Source: Dehalococcoidia bacterium
GTDB lineage: Bacteria; Chloroflexota; Dehalococcoidia; Lucifugimonadales; GCA-002694895
Length of the DNA: 64,000 bases
Assembly: GCA_029936815.1 (NCBI GenBank)
Contig: JAPYRX010000005.1
Coordinates: 47,707-111,706 of the forward strand
Direction of reading: 5' to 3'
In this document: positions 3,958 to 11,947 of the stretch, piece after piece
How positions within the stretch are numbered: the stretch's first letter is position 1
Layout of the letters: every line of letters begins with the position of its first letter
The notes under the pieces: generated by a model
Told to the model about the DNA's origin: nothing
The model's input: only the letters and a program-made list of their open reading frames with translations
Databases searched by the model: none
Translations under genes and position numbers: made by a program

Positions 3958-6411
3958 ATGGTCTTTAAAGAATCAGATTTTACTAAAGAAGCGCAGGCTG
4001 TTCTTCATTTGTCGCAAGAACTAATGTGGAAATATAAACATAGCCAATGGGATCCTGAGCATATATTGTTAGCACTTTTGGAACATGAAAAAGGTGTGCC
4101 AATGTTAATTTTCGAAAAATTAAATACAGCAAGTAAATCATTAAGAAATAGATTGATATCAGCAATGGAATCCACTATAGGAATGCGTTACCCATCTTCT
4201 CAAGTTTATGCTTCTCCAAGATTAGAAGCTTTACTTGAGAGATCTAAATCAGAAAGTAAACGCTTACAAGACGATTTTATAAGTACAGAACATTTTCTGA
4301 TTGCATTATGCCAAGAACAACAAGGGCTTGTTGTAAGGGTATTTAGGGAATTTAATATTGAAATTGAAAAAGTGTATAAAGCTCTGCAAAAAATAAGAGG
4401 TGGGCACAGAGTAAAAGATGAAAATGCTGAACAAAAATATCAATCTCTTGATAGATATACAACAGATTTAACAAATCTTGCCTCAAGAGGAAAATTAGAC
4501 CCAGTATCCGGCAGAGAAAGTGAAATATCACGAGTAATACAAACATTAATTAGAAGATCAAAAAACAACCCTGTACTAATTGGTGGCCCAGGAGTTGGTA
4601 AAACTGCTATAGCAGAAGCATTAGCCCAAAAAATTGCTGATAATGATGTCCCAAAAATATTAAAAAACAAAAAAATATTAGCATTAGATATGGGTGCTTT
4701 AATAGCAGGAAGTAAATTCAGAGGCGAATTTGAGGAAAGATTAAAAGCTGTGATGGACGAAATCAAAAGCTCTAATGGGAATGTAATTCTATTCATAGAT
4801 GAACTTCATACTGTAGTTGGAGCTGGTTCAGCAGAAGGAGCAATTGACGCAAGTAATCTTATGAAACCTTCTTTATCAAGAGGAGAATTGCAATGTATGG
4901 GAGCAACAACCGAAGCTGAGTACAAAAAATATATAGAAAAAGATGGAGCTCTAGAAAGAAGGTTTCAACCAGTTATTGTTGATGAACCTTCAAATGAATT
5001 AGCTGTTGAGATGCTAGAATCTTTAAGACCAAAATTAGAAGATCATCATAATGTAACTATAGAAAAAAATTCATTAGTATCAGCAGTAAAGTTAGGACAA
5101 AGATATATTAGTGGAAGATTACTTCCTGACAAAGCTATAGATTTAATCGATGAAACTTCTGCCAGGTTACGTATTGAAAACAAAGATGATGATTTTAATA
5201 TAGATATTTCAGATAAACAACATGAGATATCAGATCTTAAAGAAGATGAATATGAAGCATCAAAATTAGAAGATTACAAATTGGCAGGAGAATTAAAGGA
5301 TAAGAGGATTAAATTAGAAAATACACTGAAATCTGTAAAAACCGAAACTTTGGAAAATAAAAAATTAGTTTTAACATCTGAAGAAATTGCTAAAACTGTT
5401 TCAATATGGACAGGCATTCCAATTACAAATCTTATGAATGATGAATCAAAAAAATTAATGAAAATTGAAAAATATCTTCATAAAAGAGTAGTAGGTCAGA
5501 ATAATGCAGTAAAATCTATTTCAGATGCATTGAGAAGATCTAGAGCTGGATTAAAAGATCCTTCAAAACCAATTGGTAGTTTTCTTTTTATGGGGCCTAC
5601 CGGAGTTGGAAAAACAGAATTAGCAAAAGCATTATCTGAATTTATGTTTGATGATGAATCTAACATGATCAGAATAGACATGTCCGAATACATTGAAAAA
5701 CATAGCGTTTCTAGACTCATAGGTTCACCTCCAGGATATGTTGGATTTGATGAAGGTGGACAACTCACAGAAAGCGTAAGAAAAAGACCATACAGAGTAA
5801 TTTTGTTTGATGAAATTGAAAAGGCACATCCAGATATTTTTAATATATTATTACAAATATTGGATGACGGAAGACTAACAGATGGACATGGAAGAACAGT
5901 TGATTTTACAAACACTATTATTATTATGACCAGTAATCTTATTACTGCAGATAACATGACAAATAATTTTGGATTTGTTCAAAATTTAACTGATCAGGAA
6001 GCTGTAAAACAAAGATCATCAATTGACAAAGTTTTAAAAGGTTCTTTCAGACCAGAATTCATAAATAGAATAGATGAAATCATTGTATTTGAGAAACTTA
6101 AAAAAGATGAACTGACGCACATTGCTGACATAATTATCAGAGATATTCAGATTAGATTAGATGAGAAAAAAATCAAGATCTCATTAACTGAATCAGCAAA
6201 AGAATTATTGATTGAAGAAGGCTACGACGAAGAATTTGGAGCAAGGCCATTAAAAAGATTAATTCAAAGAAAAATTGAAAATGAAATTTCATCTATGATA
6301 ATTTCAAAAACATTATCTAAAAATGCAACTGTCAAAATAAATTCAAAAGATGGAAAATTAGAATTTAAAAAACAAAATTCAAAAAGTAAATCTAAATCTT
6401 CAGTGACATAA
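3958..6411 (+). CDS. clpC: ClpC/ClpB-family AAA+ ATPase
   Basis: 817 aa with Clp N-domain, two Walker A motifs ([16 protein letters not shown]) and a short middle domain as in ClpC. Confidence 0.92.
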
Positions 6412-7866: not shown

Positions 7867-8550
7867 ATGCCCAATCAAAATAATTTTGAACAATTTTATT
7901 CGGAAATGATCACCTGTATCAAATGCAGTAGATTGGTAACTTTTAGAGAAAAAATAGCCACAGAAAAACGTAAGCAATATATAGATGAAGAATATTGGGG
8001 GAAACCGGTACCAGGGTACGGAGATATTAATGCAGAAATTCTCTTTGTTGGGTTGGCACCTGCGGCACATGGTGGGAACAGAACAGGAAGAGTGTTTACA
8101 GGAGATAAATCAGCTGATTTTTTAATGAAATGTATGGACCGTACAGGCTTAGCTAATCAGATCAATTCTGACTATCTGGATGATGGACTTATATTAAATA
8201 ATGCCTATATGACTGTTATGCTAAAATGCGTACCTCCTCAAGATAAGCCTTCGCCACTCGAATTGAAAACTTGTTTTAGTTATTTTAACCAGGAAATGAA
8301 ATTACTTAAAAATCTTAAAACGATCGTAGCACTAGGAAAGATAGCTTTTGACGGCACACTAAAATATTTCAAACAGTTTGATGATTTAAAAACAAAAGAC
8401 TTTCCATTTGGGCATGGAAAGTCATATAAAATGCCTAATGGAATAAACTTGCTAGGCTGCTATCACCCTAGCCCAAGAAATGTTAATACCGGGAAATTAA
8501 ATTTCGAGATGATGACTAGTCTTTTCAGGAATATAAGTAACAAGATATAA
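7867..8550 (+). CDS. Type-5 uracil-DNA glycosylase (UdgB-like)
   Basis: CIKCSRLV..., VPGYGDINAEILFVGLAPAAHGGNRTGRVFTGDKSADFL; GCYHPSPRNVNTGKL. Confidence 0.88.
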   Translation: MPNQNNFEQFYSEMITCIKCSRLVTFREKIATEKRKQYIDEEYWGKPVPGYGDINAEILFVGLAPAAHGGNRTGRVFTGDKSADFLMKCMDRTGLANQINSDYLDDGLILNNAYMTVMLKCVPPQDKPSPLELKTCFSYFNQEMKLLKNLKTIVALGKIAFDGTLKYFKQFDDLKTKDFPFGHGKSYKMPNGINLLGCYHPSPRNVNTGKLNFEMMTSLFRNISNKI

Positions 8551-8573: not shown

Positions 8574-8602
8574 TTGAATAAAACGAACAAATGTTCTAAA
8601 AT
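8574..8602 (+). promoter_or_regulatory. Promoter of nurA-herA operon
   Basis: TTGAAT (8574-8579), 17-nt spacer, TAAAAT (8597-8602); ATG at 8609. Confidence 0.5.
8584..8597. promoter_or_regulatory. LexA-type SOS box
   Basis: CGAACAAATGTTCT = perfect GAAC-N4-GTTC, inside the promoter spacer and overlapping the first base of the -10. Confidence 0.65.
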
Positions 8603-8608
8603 AAGATT

Positions 8609-9694
8609 ATGAAAATAGAAAAAACAGTTAAATATATATCAGGACTAGCCAAGCAACTGCAACAGGAAATTTCAATGAAAACGAATGTTGCTAGTTCATT
8701 ACAACATGAAATCAGTGCGAATTCAAAAACTATATTGGAAAACACAAGAAATGGAAATGATAAACAAGCTACCTACTCTGATTTAAATACAGCTATCCCA
8801 GTAACTGCTGTTGAAAAAAATATTTCAGTATTTGGTGCTGATGGATCAAGCATAGAAGCTGACAGAGAATTACCATTAGAATTTTCAGCAATAAATATTG
8901 GATATATAAATATAAATTATGGTGATAACGCTAATGCAGATTTTGACGAATCACTTACATTTTACCCTGATAACAAAGATATTCCAGAAGTAGACAGAAA
9001 ATTATTGTCTGATATAAATGCTATGAGTGCATTAAGGCATGTATTAGAAATTGAATACCTTATTGGGAAAATGGAGGAAAGTAAAAGTAATAATATTAAA
9101 CTAGGATTTGTAGATGGTAATTTATACCCAAATTTTGCACTTGCACATATTACTAATATAACTTTCAAACAATTTTTATATAAAAGACTGGATGAAGTTG
9201 CTGAAAAAATAATAAATTTATCACAACAAAACGCTTATATTATTTCATATAATAGCAGCCCAAATTCAATTCACATTTCATCAAAGATGAAGGGTAAGTT
9301 TGCAGAAGAACTTAGTGATTCTGAATTATTTGATAACCTACTCAATATAAATGAAAGATCTGATATATTCACTGAAATATCTGAAGAAGAAAACAATAAC
9401 TTAAAACCAATATCATTTGTATTTACAAAAAATTACAAAGAGTTATCCAAAATAGAATTTTTAAAAGACACTATTAACTTAGAGACCATGGACAAAATCC
9501 ATGGAATCATTTTATCCCAGGTAGAAAAAGGCCGAGGATACCCAAAGATATTAATTGAAAGCCATGAACATGCTGTTATATCACAATCTGACAGAGCGGC
9601 AATAAACACACTTATTGAGAGAGAGTTGAATTTATTAAACATAAATTATAAAACATCACAAAAGCAACAATCTAAACAAACAAGAAATATTTAA
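8609..9694 (+). CDS. nurA: NurA domain nuclease
   Basis: NurA-type VFGADGSSIEADRELPLEFSAINIGYI motif; C-terminal KGRGYPKILIESHEHAVIS; followed by HerA. Confidence 0.85.
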   Translation: MKIEKTVKYISGLAKQLQQEISMKTNVASSLQHEISANSKTILENTRNGNDKQATYSDLNTAIPVTAVEKNISVFGADGSSIEADRELPLEFSAINIGYININYGDNANADFDESLTFYPDNKDIPEVDRKLLSDINAMSALRHVLEIEYLIGKMEESKSNNIKLGFVDGNLYPNFALAHITNITFKQFLYKRLDEVAEKIINLSQQNAYIISYNSSPNSIHISSKMKGKFAEELSDSELFDNLLNINERSDIFTEISEEENNNLKPISFVFTKNYKELSKIEFLKDTINLETMDKIHGIILSQVEKGRGYPKILIESHEHAVISQSDRAAINTLIERELNLLNINYKTSQKQQSKQTRNI

Positions 9695-9710: not shown

Positions 9711-10319
9711 ATGGATAATGGAAAAATAATAGGCGAAATAATAGAAGTATCAAGTAGATACTGTATTGCTCAATCGTATGAGTTATATGGATGCCCACCT
9801 ATAGGAGATATAGTTAAGTGTACGGACGATAAAAATGAAGGTATTTTTGGTGTGGTGACTAATATATCAACGACAAGTATAGATCCTGGAAGAAGGCCAA
9901 ATCCTAAAGGGCCTGGGTTTGAAAATGTTACAGATATTTACAAAGAAAATCCGGAAATTAGACATCTTATGAAAACAGAATTTAATATAACTTTCATGGG
10001 ATTCAAAAATTTTAATAAATTCTCAATTTCTATTCCCCCTACCCCACCTAAGATTTTTAGTTTCATACATGCTGTTGGAGAAGATGAACTTACAACATTA
10101 TTTTCTGATTCAAACTTAATCAAGTTTATAGTTAATTCAAACATGGATCTAAAGGATGATGTTATCACTCTAACTATTAATAAATATCTTAATTATAAAA
10201 AATCAAATAAAGATGAATTGATCAGATTTACCAACTTATTAGCACAAGCGTTACCAGATCAGATTCAAAGAATAACTAACATAATAAACAATCTTCAAAT
10301 TGAGGAGGATCTAAATTGA
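9711..10319 (+). CDS. HAS-barrel-like protein associated with HerA-NurA
   Basis: 202 aa; N-terminal GKIIGEIIEVSSRYCIAQSYELYGCPPIGDIVKC; stop overlaps start of herA. Confidence 0.55.
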   Translation: MDNGKIIGEIIEVSSRYCIAQSYELYGCPPIGDIVKCTDDKNEGIFGVVTNISTTSIDPGRRPNPKGPGFENVTDIYKENPEIRHLMKTEFNITFMGFKNFNKFSISIPPTPPKIFSFIHAVGEDELTTLFSDSNLIKFIVNSNMDLKDDVITLTINKYLNYKKSNKDELIRFTNLLAQALPDQIQRITNIINNLQIEEDLN

Positions 10320-11947
10320 TCAAACAGGATAATATCGGAATAGTCGTATCAGGAACTTTTAATCAGGGAATAAATATTAAATTAAATTCTCAAAGTGATA
10401 TGGAATCAGTAACAATAGGTTCCCATATAGTAATAGATACAAAACAAAATAGATTTATGTGCGAAGTTGCAGATATAAAATTAACTTCTACAGATCAGAG
10501 GATTGAGCAACTTCCTATCCATATGCATAATGAAACTATATTCAACTCACTAAGAGATAATGCTGCATATGGGATAATCGAAGTTATTCCAAGGCTATTA
10601 CTAAAAAAAGATTCACCATTAGGAAAAGATGAAGAACCTGAAGAATTACCTGGGGCAAATACAATTCCTCCGCATTTTTCACCTGTATTTAAACCAACTG
10701 AAGCTGACTATAACCAAATATTCCATACTAAAGATGGAGTAGGATTCAATGTAGGATCTCCAATGGATTTGAATACTCAGATTAATTTGGATATGGAATT
10801 ATTAGTTAGAAGAAGTAGCGCGATATTTGGAAAATCAGGATCTGGAAAATCTTTCTTAACCAGAATTCTATTAGCTGGAATGATACAAAAAAGCAACACT
10901 GCATCTTTGGTATTTGATTATGCAGGAGAATATGGATATGAGTCAGCAAGTGAAAACGGATCTACTGTAAAAGGACTTGCTCAATTATTTTCACAAAAAG
11001 TTTATAACTATACAATAAATGAATCAAAAGCAAAAAATAAAAAATTTGGAGCAGTTTATCTAAGTATTCCAAGGTCACAAATAACCGCAACTGATATTGT
11101 AACTTCTGCTGCTGAACTTGATCTAAATGCAAATCAAGTTGAAGGCATTCACCAAATATATGATCAGTTTAGGTATGTAAAAGGTGGAGACTGGATTAAT
11201 CATTTCCTACGATTAGAAAATGAAACAGACGAAATGAATACATTTAAAAATAGTACATATACAGCAGACGCCACTATAGAAGCAATCAAAAGAAGATTTG
11301 CAAGAATCGCAAGGTTGCAATTTTTAACTTCAGGGGATACAGAAACCAATGTAATTGAAGAATTAATAGAGAAACTAAAACTTGGAAATACCGTTATTTT
11401 AGATTTTCCTAAAGATCAATTGTCTTATATTCTACTTGCTAATATGCTTACTCGAAGAATTCATAGACAATGGCAAAAAATGAAAGATGATTATGTGGAT
11501 TCAATAAATACAGACAATCCTAAAAAGGATCCTGTTTCATTAGTGATATGCATAGAAGAAGCTCATAATTTCTTGAATAAAGATGTTTCAAATAGAACAA
11601 TATTTGGGAAAATCGCAAGAGAAGCAAGGAAATATAATGTAACTTTAATGGTGGTAGACCAGAGACCAAGTGGGATTGATGACGAGATTATTTCCCAAAT
11701 AGAAAATAAATTCATTTGCAAACTTGATAACTCAAAAGATATAGATGCGATTTTCACAGGCATACATCAAAGTGCTTCATTAAAAACATCTCTTAGATCT
11801 ATACAATCGAATCAACACGCATTAGCTTTTGGGGAGGCAATTCCAATGCCCATCATATTTAAAGTTCGTAATTATGGACAAACTTTTTATAAGGAAATAG
11901 GTGCTGATGATGAACCTCTTTTCTCGCCAGAAGATGCGGGGATATAA
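10316..11947 (+). CDS. herA: HerA-like DNA translocase/ATPase (DUF87)
   Basis: Walker A FGKSGSGKSFLTR, Walker B LVICIEEAHNFL, N-terminal HAS-barrel-like segment. Confidence 0.92.
   Translation: MIKQDNIGIVVSGTFNQGINIKLNSQSDMESVTIGSHIVIDTKQNRFMCEVADIKLTSTDQRIEQLPIHMHNETIFNSLRDNAAYGIIEVIPRLLLKKDSPLGKDEEPEELPGANTIPPHFSPVFKPTEADYNQIFHTKDGVGFNVGSPMDLNTQINLDMELLVRRSSAIFGKSGSGKSFLTRILLAGMIQKSNTASLVFDYAGEYGYESASENGSTVKGLAQLFSQKVYNYTINESKAKNKKFGAVYLSIPRSQITATDIVTSAAELDLNANQVEGIHQIYDQFRYVKGGDWINHFLRLENETDEMNTFKNSTYTADATIEAIKRRFARIARLQFLTSGDTETNVIEELIEKLKLGNTVILDFPKDQLSYILLANMLTRRIHRQWQKMKDDYVDSINTDNPKKDPVSLVICIEEAHNFLNKDVSNRTIFGKIAREARKYNVTLMVVDQRPSGIDDEIISQIENKFICKLDNSKDIDAIFTGIHQSASLKTSLRSIQSNQHALAFGEAIPMPIIFKVRNYGQTFYKEIGADDEPLFSPEDAGI

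Follow-up and report, generated by a model that had tools for sequence, protein, structure and literature searches.

Most work on NurA-HerA, a pairing of a nuclease-family protein with a hexameric-type ATPase, has been done in archaea and Deinococcus. The enzyme from Deinococcus radiodurans performs 5' resection that is regulated by translocation (PMC9960219), and the main damage response that has been described for Deinococcus is PprI-DdrO (PMC10904395). Here we analyse a nurA-orf202-herA operon from a Dehalococcoidia bacterium, encoded in a stretch of 64,000 nucleotides (the window) that belongs to a draft, 1.46-Mb genome in 35 contigs. The promoter of this operon contains a predicted LexA operator (SOS box). 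We consider it very likely that LexA represses nurA-orf202-herA and that DNA damage releases this repression; that is, the lineage has probably put a break-repair nuclease under SOS control.

The boxed nurA-orf202-herA operon

The first gene of the operon, nurA (8609-9694, forward strand), encodes a 361 aa protein of a nuclease family (Pfam NurA, 36.6 bits). It is followed on the same strand by orf202 (9711-10319), which specifies a 202-aa protein, and by herA (10316-11947), which overlaps orf202 by 4 bp and encodes a 543-aa hexameric-type ATPase (Pfam DUF87, 84 bits; the NCBIfam HerA models are below cut-off for this product). The Pfam assignments (NurA and DUF87/HerA) therefore describe adjacent genes of the NurA and HerA families. 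A gene of the uracil-DNA glycosylase (UDG) superfamily (7867-8550, forward strand; Pfam UDG, 90 bits) is an upstream neighbour that lies outside the boxed operon.

The nurA promoter is read from the sequence as a -35 hexamer, TTGAAT (8574-8579, forward strand), and a -10 hexamer, TAAAAT (8597-8602, forward strand), separated by a 17-bp spacer. The predicted operator GAACAAATGTTC (8585-8596, with no strand assigned) fills the downstream part of this spacer, between the -35 and -10 elements, such that it overlaps its target promoter and directly abuts the -10 hexamer; its extended form, CGAACAAATGTTCT, occupies 8584-8597. The end of the box is 12 bp 5' of nurA, the ATG of which is at 8609. A sequence-only reading had reported a perfect GAAC-N4-GTTC at 8584-8597 inside the TTGAAT/TAAAAT spacer: the coordinates proved to be exact, and the promoter positions are confirmed from the sequence. 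Its further proposal that this is a LexA-type operator is supported by a lexA gene with matching motif and register, and by the retention of the site within the genus (see below).

In the mechanism that we propose, LexA, encoded elsewhere in the genome, would bind GAACAAATGTTC between the -35 and -10 elements and exclude RNA polymerase. DNA damage would generate single-stranded DNA, upon which RecA filaments would form and elicit LexA self-cleavage; the loss of LexA would then permit transcription of nurA-orf202-herA and so raise the capacity for end resection.

As to the proteins themselves, D78, D169, R250 and E317 are among the NurA residues that are invariant in 13 homologues. Of these, D78, D169 and E317 are acidic; a search with the NurA profile found no solved NurA that it matched by sequence. 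The orf202 product has no match in Pfam, NCBIfam or PADLOC and its predicted structure is too poor for use (mean pLDDT 45); it is conserved across the class, in other families of which a homologue also lies between nurA and herA, and it is possibly a third subunit. The sequence-only reading had called this NurA-HerA system ‘archaeal-like’, which is overstated: NurA is an ordinary protein in the class (126 of 294 genomes in a one-sequence search) and in the order (73 of 98 genomes with Pfam NurA). Because the protein is so widespread in the class, we do not favour an archaeal import of nurA, and a search for viral relatives of NurA found none. We also rejected a role in a defence system: PADLOC returned only generic HerA models, and none for NurA. 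An AddB/RecB-type PDDEXK_1 nuclease domain was found in none of five genomes of the genus (65-90% complete), as compared to 12 of 14 control genomes; NurA-HerA would therefore have a larger role.

LexA, its motif and the predicted regulon

There is one full lexA in the genome (TIGR00498, 179 bits), the product of which has the Pfam domains LexA_DNA_bind and Peptidase_S24 (the S24 autoprotease). The sequence TAGAACATATGTGCTA is situated 11 bp before the lexA start, and is the same in congeners. Across the order, GAAC-N4-GTTC with at most one mismatch occurs within about 200 bp of lexA at 29 of 30 lexA loci; such a site is expected in 5-7% of random sequences. The core of the order-wide lexA box is GAACATNCGTTC-like, and the order's lexA motif matches the one described for Gram-positive bacteria (PMC3323433). 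Moreover, the register of the box relative to the -10 hexamer at nurA is that of the lexA promoters of the genus. The sequence-only reading had allowed for a genome that lacks lexA, or one with a different motif at lexA or recA. As we have seen, lexA is present, with the same motif in the same register; recA is neutral in this regard, having no recognisable box.

How far can the motif be distinguished from chance? The window contains a single perfect GAAC-N4-GTTC, the nurA box, against 0.34 expected, and 29 of 100 shuffled windows have at least one. The genome as a whole has 15 perfect sites, versus 10 for a reversed control pattern and ~7 from a Markov model; three of the 15 are within tRNA-like repeats, and most of the exact sites apart from the nurA box fall in such repeats or inside genes. 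Enrichment of the bare 12-mer was consequently rejected as proof (15 versus 7-10 expected), and because its count is near chance, it is context that decides. The extended motif TAGAACAWATGTTCTA behaves differently: with 0-1 mismatch it has four genomic sites (ftsZ2, umuDC, lexA and one that is intergenic) versus 0.7 expected, and in the four congeners there are 5-9 matches per strand with up to two mismatches, versus 0-3 for reversed controls. The nurA box of the window's genome (G000) departs from TAGAACAWATGTTCTA at two positions, both in the outer flank (ACGAAC instead of TAGAAC). The above-chance signal is thus the extended motif and its position, not the bare 12-mer. One other candidate in the window, with two mismatches (contig C11:90983, window about 43277), was discarded as it is inside a coding gene.

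These pattern searches yield a small regulon, which may be incomplete. Each of the four congeners also has the boxes at lexA, nurA, ftsZ2 and umuDC, the last being a classical SOS operon, and three of them (G001, G003 and G004) have the intergenic, fifth box. The register of the box to the -35 and -10 hexamers is identical in nurA, lexA and ftsZ2, and is off by one base in umuDC. For ftsZ2 of G000 and G001 our script favoured a 15-bp spacing; a 17-bp reading, TTGAC(T/A)-17-TAATAT, is also present. The gene for RecA is itself present (G000:C13:59717-60679; 522 bits), and its upstream region (L030) has no recognisable LexA box, unlike lexA and umuDC. A recA without a box is unusual for an SOS regulon, and counts against our best reading, as do the weaker outer flanks of the G000 nurA box, the lack of a site at nurA in the remainder of the order (see below) and the incomplete state of all five drafts. 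Only tentatively, then, do we suggest a small, rewired SOS regulon that comprises lexA, umuDC, nurA-orf202-herA and an FtsZ paralogue, possibly also a small hairpin RNA, to the exclusion of recA; upon damage, the main end-resection machine would be induced together with an FtsZ variant that lacks the usual C-terminal anchor peptide and might act as a division checkpoint. The wider interest of the nurA box lies in this small regulon as a whole.

The FtsZ paralogue and the fifth box may be stranger than the nurA box itself. The divergent ftsZ2 (G000:C8:61498-62577; L019:5499-6578) has orthologues in G001-G004, and its product shares about 32% identity with the canonical FtsZ of the genome. A near-perfect SOS box is embedded in a TTGACA-type promoter of ftsZ2 in all five genomes. 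FtsZ2 retains GGGTGTG and the DFADV loop; its C-terminus is KLIKLPIGFN, not the DLPPFLRK peptide. We view FtsZ2 as a candidate SOS division inhibitor. In G002, ftsZ2 occurs twice in nearly the same form, on separate contigs (C7:56739 and C20:70843) and each time with a box, which is probably a strain mixture in the draft. The fifth box (G000:C9:110035-110050; L033, also L088, L091 and L106) is between two convergent genes. It is flanked by a conserved TTGACT and, on the opposite side, by a 51-nt hairpin, TTAGCAGGAAT...ATTCCTGCTAA, whose middle pairs show covariation among the genomes and whose loop, GGATTTTTGGCTG, does not vary. An Rfam search over this region gave no family for the hairpin; besides matches below threshold it returned just a tRNA, at a distance of about 1 kb. 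Perhaps this element is an SOS-controlled small RNA, or else a terminator beside an operator.

Conservation and origin of the nurA box

Five genomes of the genus, all of them incomplete drafts (65-90% complete), were compared. Each of them retains the nurA box, at 12-18 bp upstream of the nurA start, and the NurA proteins of the congeners are 56-80% identical to that of the window. When the nurA intergenic regions of the five genomes are aligned, GAACA-NN-TGTTCTAA proves to be their sole invariant segment of any length. The surroundings are less constant: three genomes have UDG upstream of nurA, and in G001 and G004 its place is taken by selB and a 167-aa ORF. In other words, the flanking sequence and the upstream gene differ among the congeners, and the nurA box stays. 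A -35 hexamer of TTGAAT, TTGAAC or TTGTAT at 17-bp spacing is found in four of the five; in G001 our script favoured other hexamers, although TTGTAT-17-TAATAT is also present, and in G002 a distance of 20 bp separates TAAAAT from the best -35, TTGTAT.

Elsewhere in the order, none of about 70 nurA loci has a perfect site at up to 150 bp from nurA; a single one has a site with one mismatch. For 14 longer loci (L156-L169), in which the automatic nurA start was wrong, this was judged from a separate analysis; two loci are truncated by contig ends. Conservation in relatives, which the sequence-only reading had made a touchstone, is hence seen within the genus and goes no further in the order. We recognised selB upstream of nurA in 44 non-genus loci, and in most of these the starts of selB and nurA are about 1,860-1,880 bp apart, which puts the nurA start at the selB end. 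With the box present at nurA in the genus and absent elsewhere in the order, SOS control of nurA was probably gained in the genus, when nurA acquired its own promoter. The predicted LexA-nurA link belongs to this genus and is not general among Chloroflexota.

A separate observation concerns another genus: a perfect GGGAACACCTGTTCGG precedes selB, the first gene of the selB-nurA operon, by 13-15 bp in G088 (L157, about 4002-4013) and G338 (L185), and the lexA of G088 also has a perfect box. This is perhaps an independent SOS link; it could be due to chance, given that dozens of loci were searched.

Bearing in mind that the bare 12-mer is near expectation in the genome and arises in 29% of shuffled windows, the nurA box might be a chance palindrome with no regulatory role. 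We find this scarcely credible: it is already contradicted by the conservation of the box in five genomes with diverged surroundings, its register is the one found at lexA, and the probability of meeting GAACAWWTGTTC by chance in the 30 bp that precede a particular gene is about 1e-5. Some other dimeric repressor might instead be the main reader of the box, as many regulators bind short palindromes and LexA is assigned here from sequence; alternatively, the palindrome might work as an mRNA or DNA hairpin. Both the motif and the register, however, are common to the lexA, umuDC and nurA promoters, and the core is common to the lexA promoters of the order. Judged by the -10 hexamer, transcription should begin downstream of the box, which would leave the box outside the mRNA. 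Such a reading is, in our estimation, very improbable.

There is more to be said for a compromise in which LexA does bind, yet transcription also reads through from UDG (or selB), so that the box merely modulates expression and SOS induction is small. The UDG gene shares the strand of nurA and stops 58 bp short of it, and the position of nurA at the selB end in much of the order suggests ancestral read-through. Against this, the boxed promoter has been retained while the upstream gene changes among congeners; we consider substantial read-through to be unlikely, and direct repression by LexA to be the better description of the nurA promoter.

Relation to known systems

If LexA does control this operon, nurA-herA moved from selB read-through to its own LexA promoter, and break processing was tied to the SOS signal in a compact, presumably marine genome. 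Resection yields the single-stranded DNA that activates RecA, and so the induction of resection could amplify the SOS response, which raises the question of feedback. We found no report of LexA/SOS control of nurA or herA in the open-access literature, a weak negative.

The nurA-orf202-herA operons elsewhere in the order and class have the same gene order and homologous proteins; in the order they are often behind selB and, unlike those of the genus, have no perfect LexA box at nurA. D. radiodurans (PMC9960219) similarly has adjacent nurA and herA genes of the bacterial NurA and HerA families, and it is likewise without RecBC (PMC10904395), whereas in our genus a third gene separates nurA from herA and the operon has a predicted LexA box. 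With the Gram-positive-type LexA regulon of B. subtilis and M. tuberculosis (PMC3323433), the present one shares the GAAC-N4-GTTC core, lexA autoregulation, an umuDC-type polymerase and a cell-division gene; it differs in its nurA-herA target, in a recA that has no box, and in that the division gene is an FtsZ paralogue. The nurA-herA pair is, then, a probable new target of a LexA regulon whose type is already familiar.
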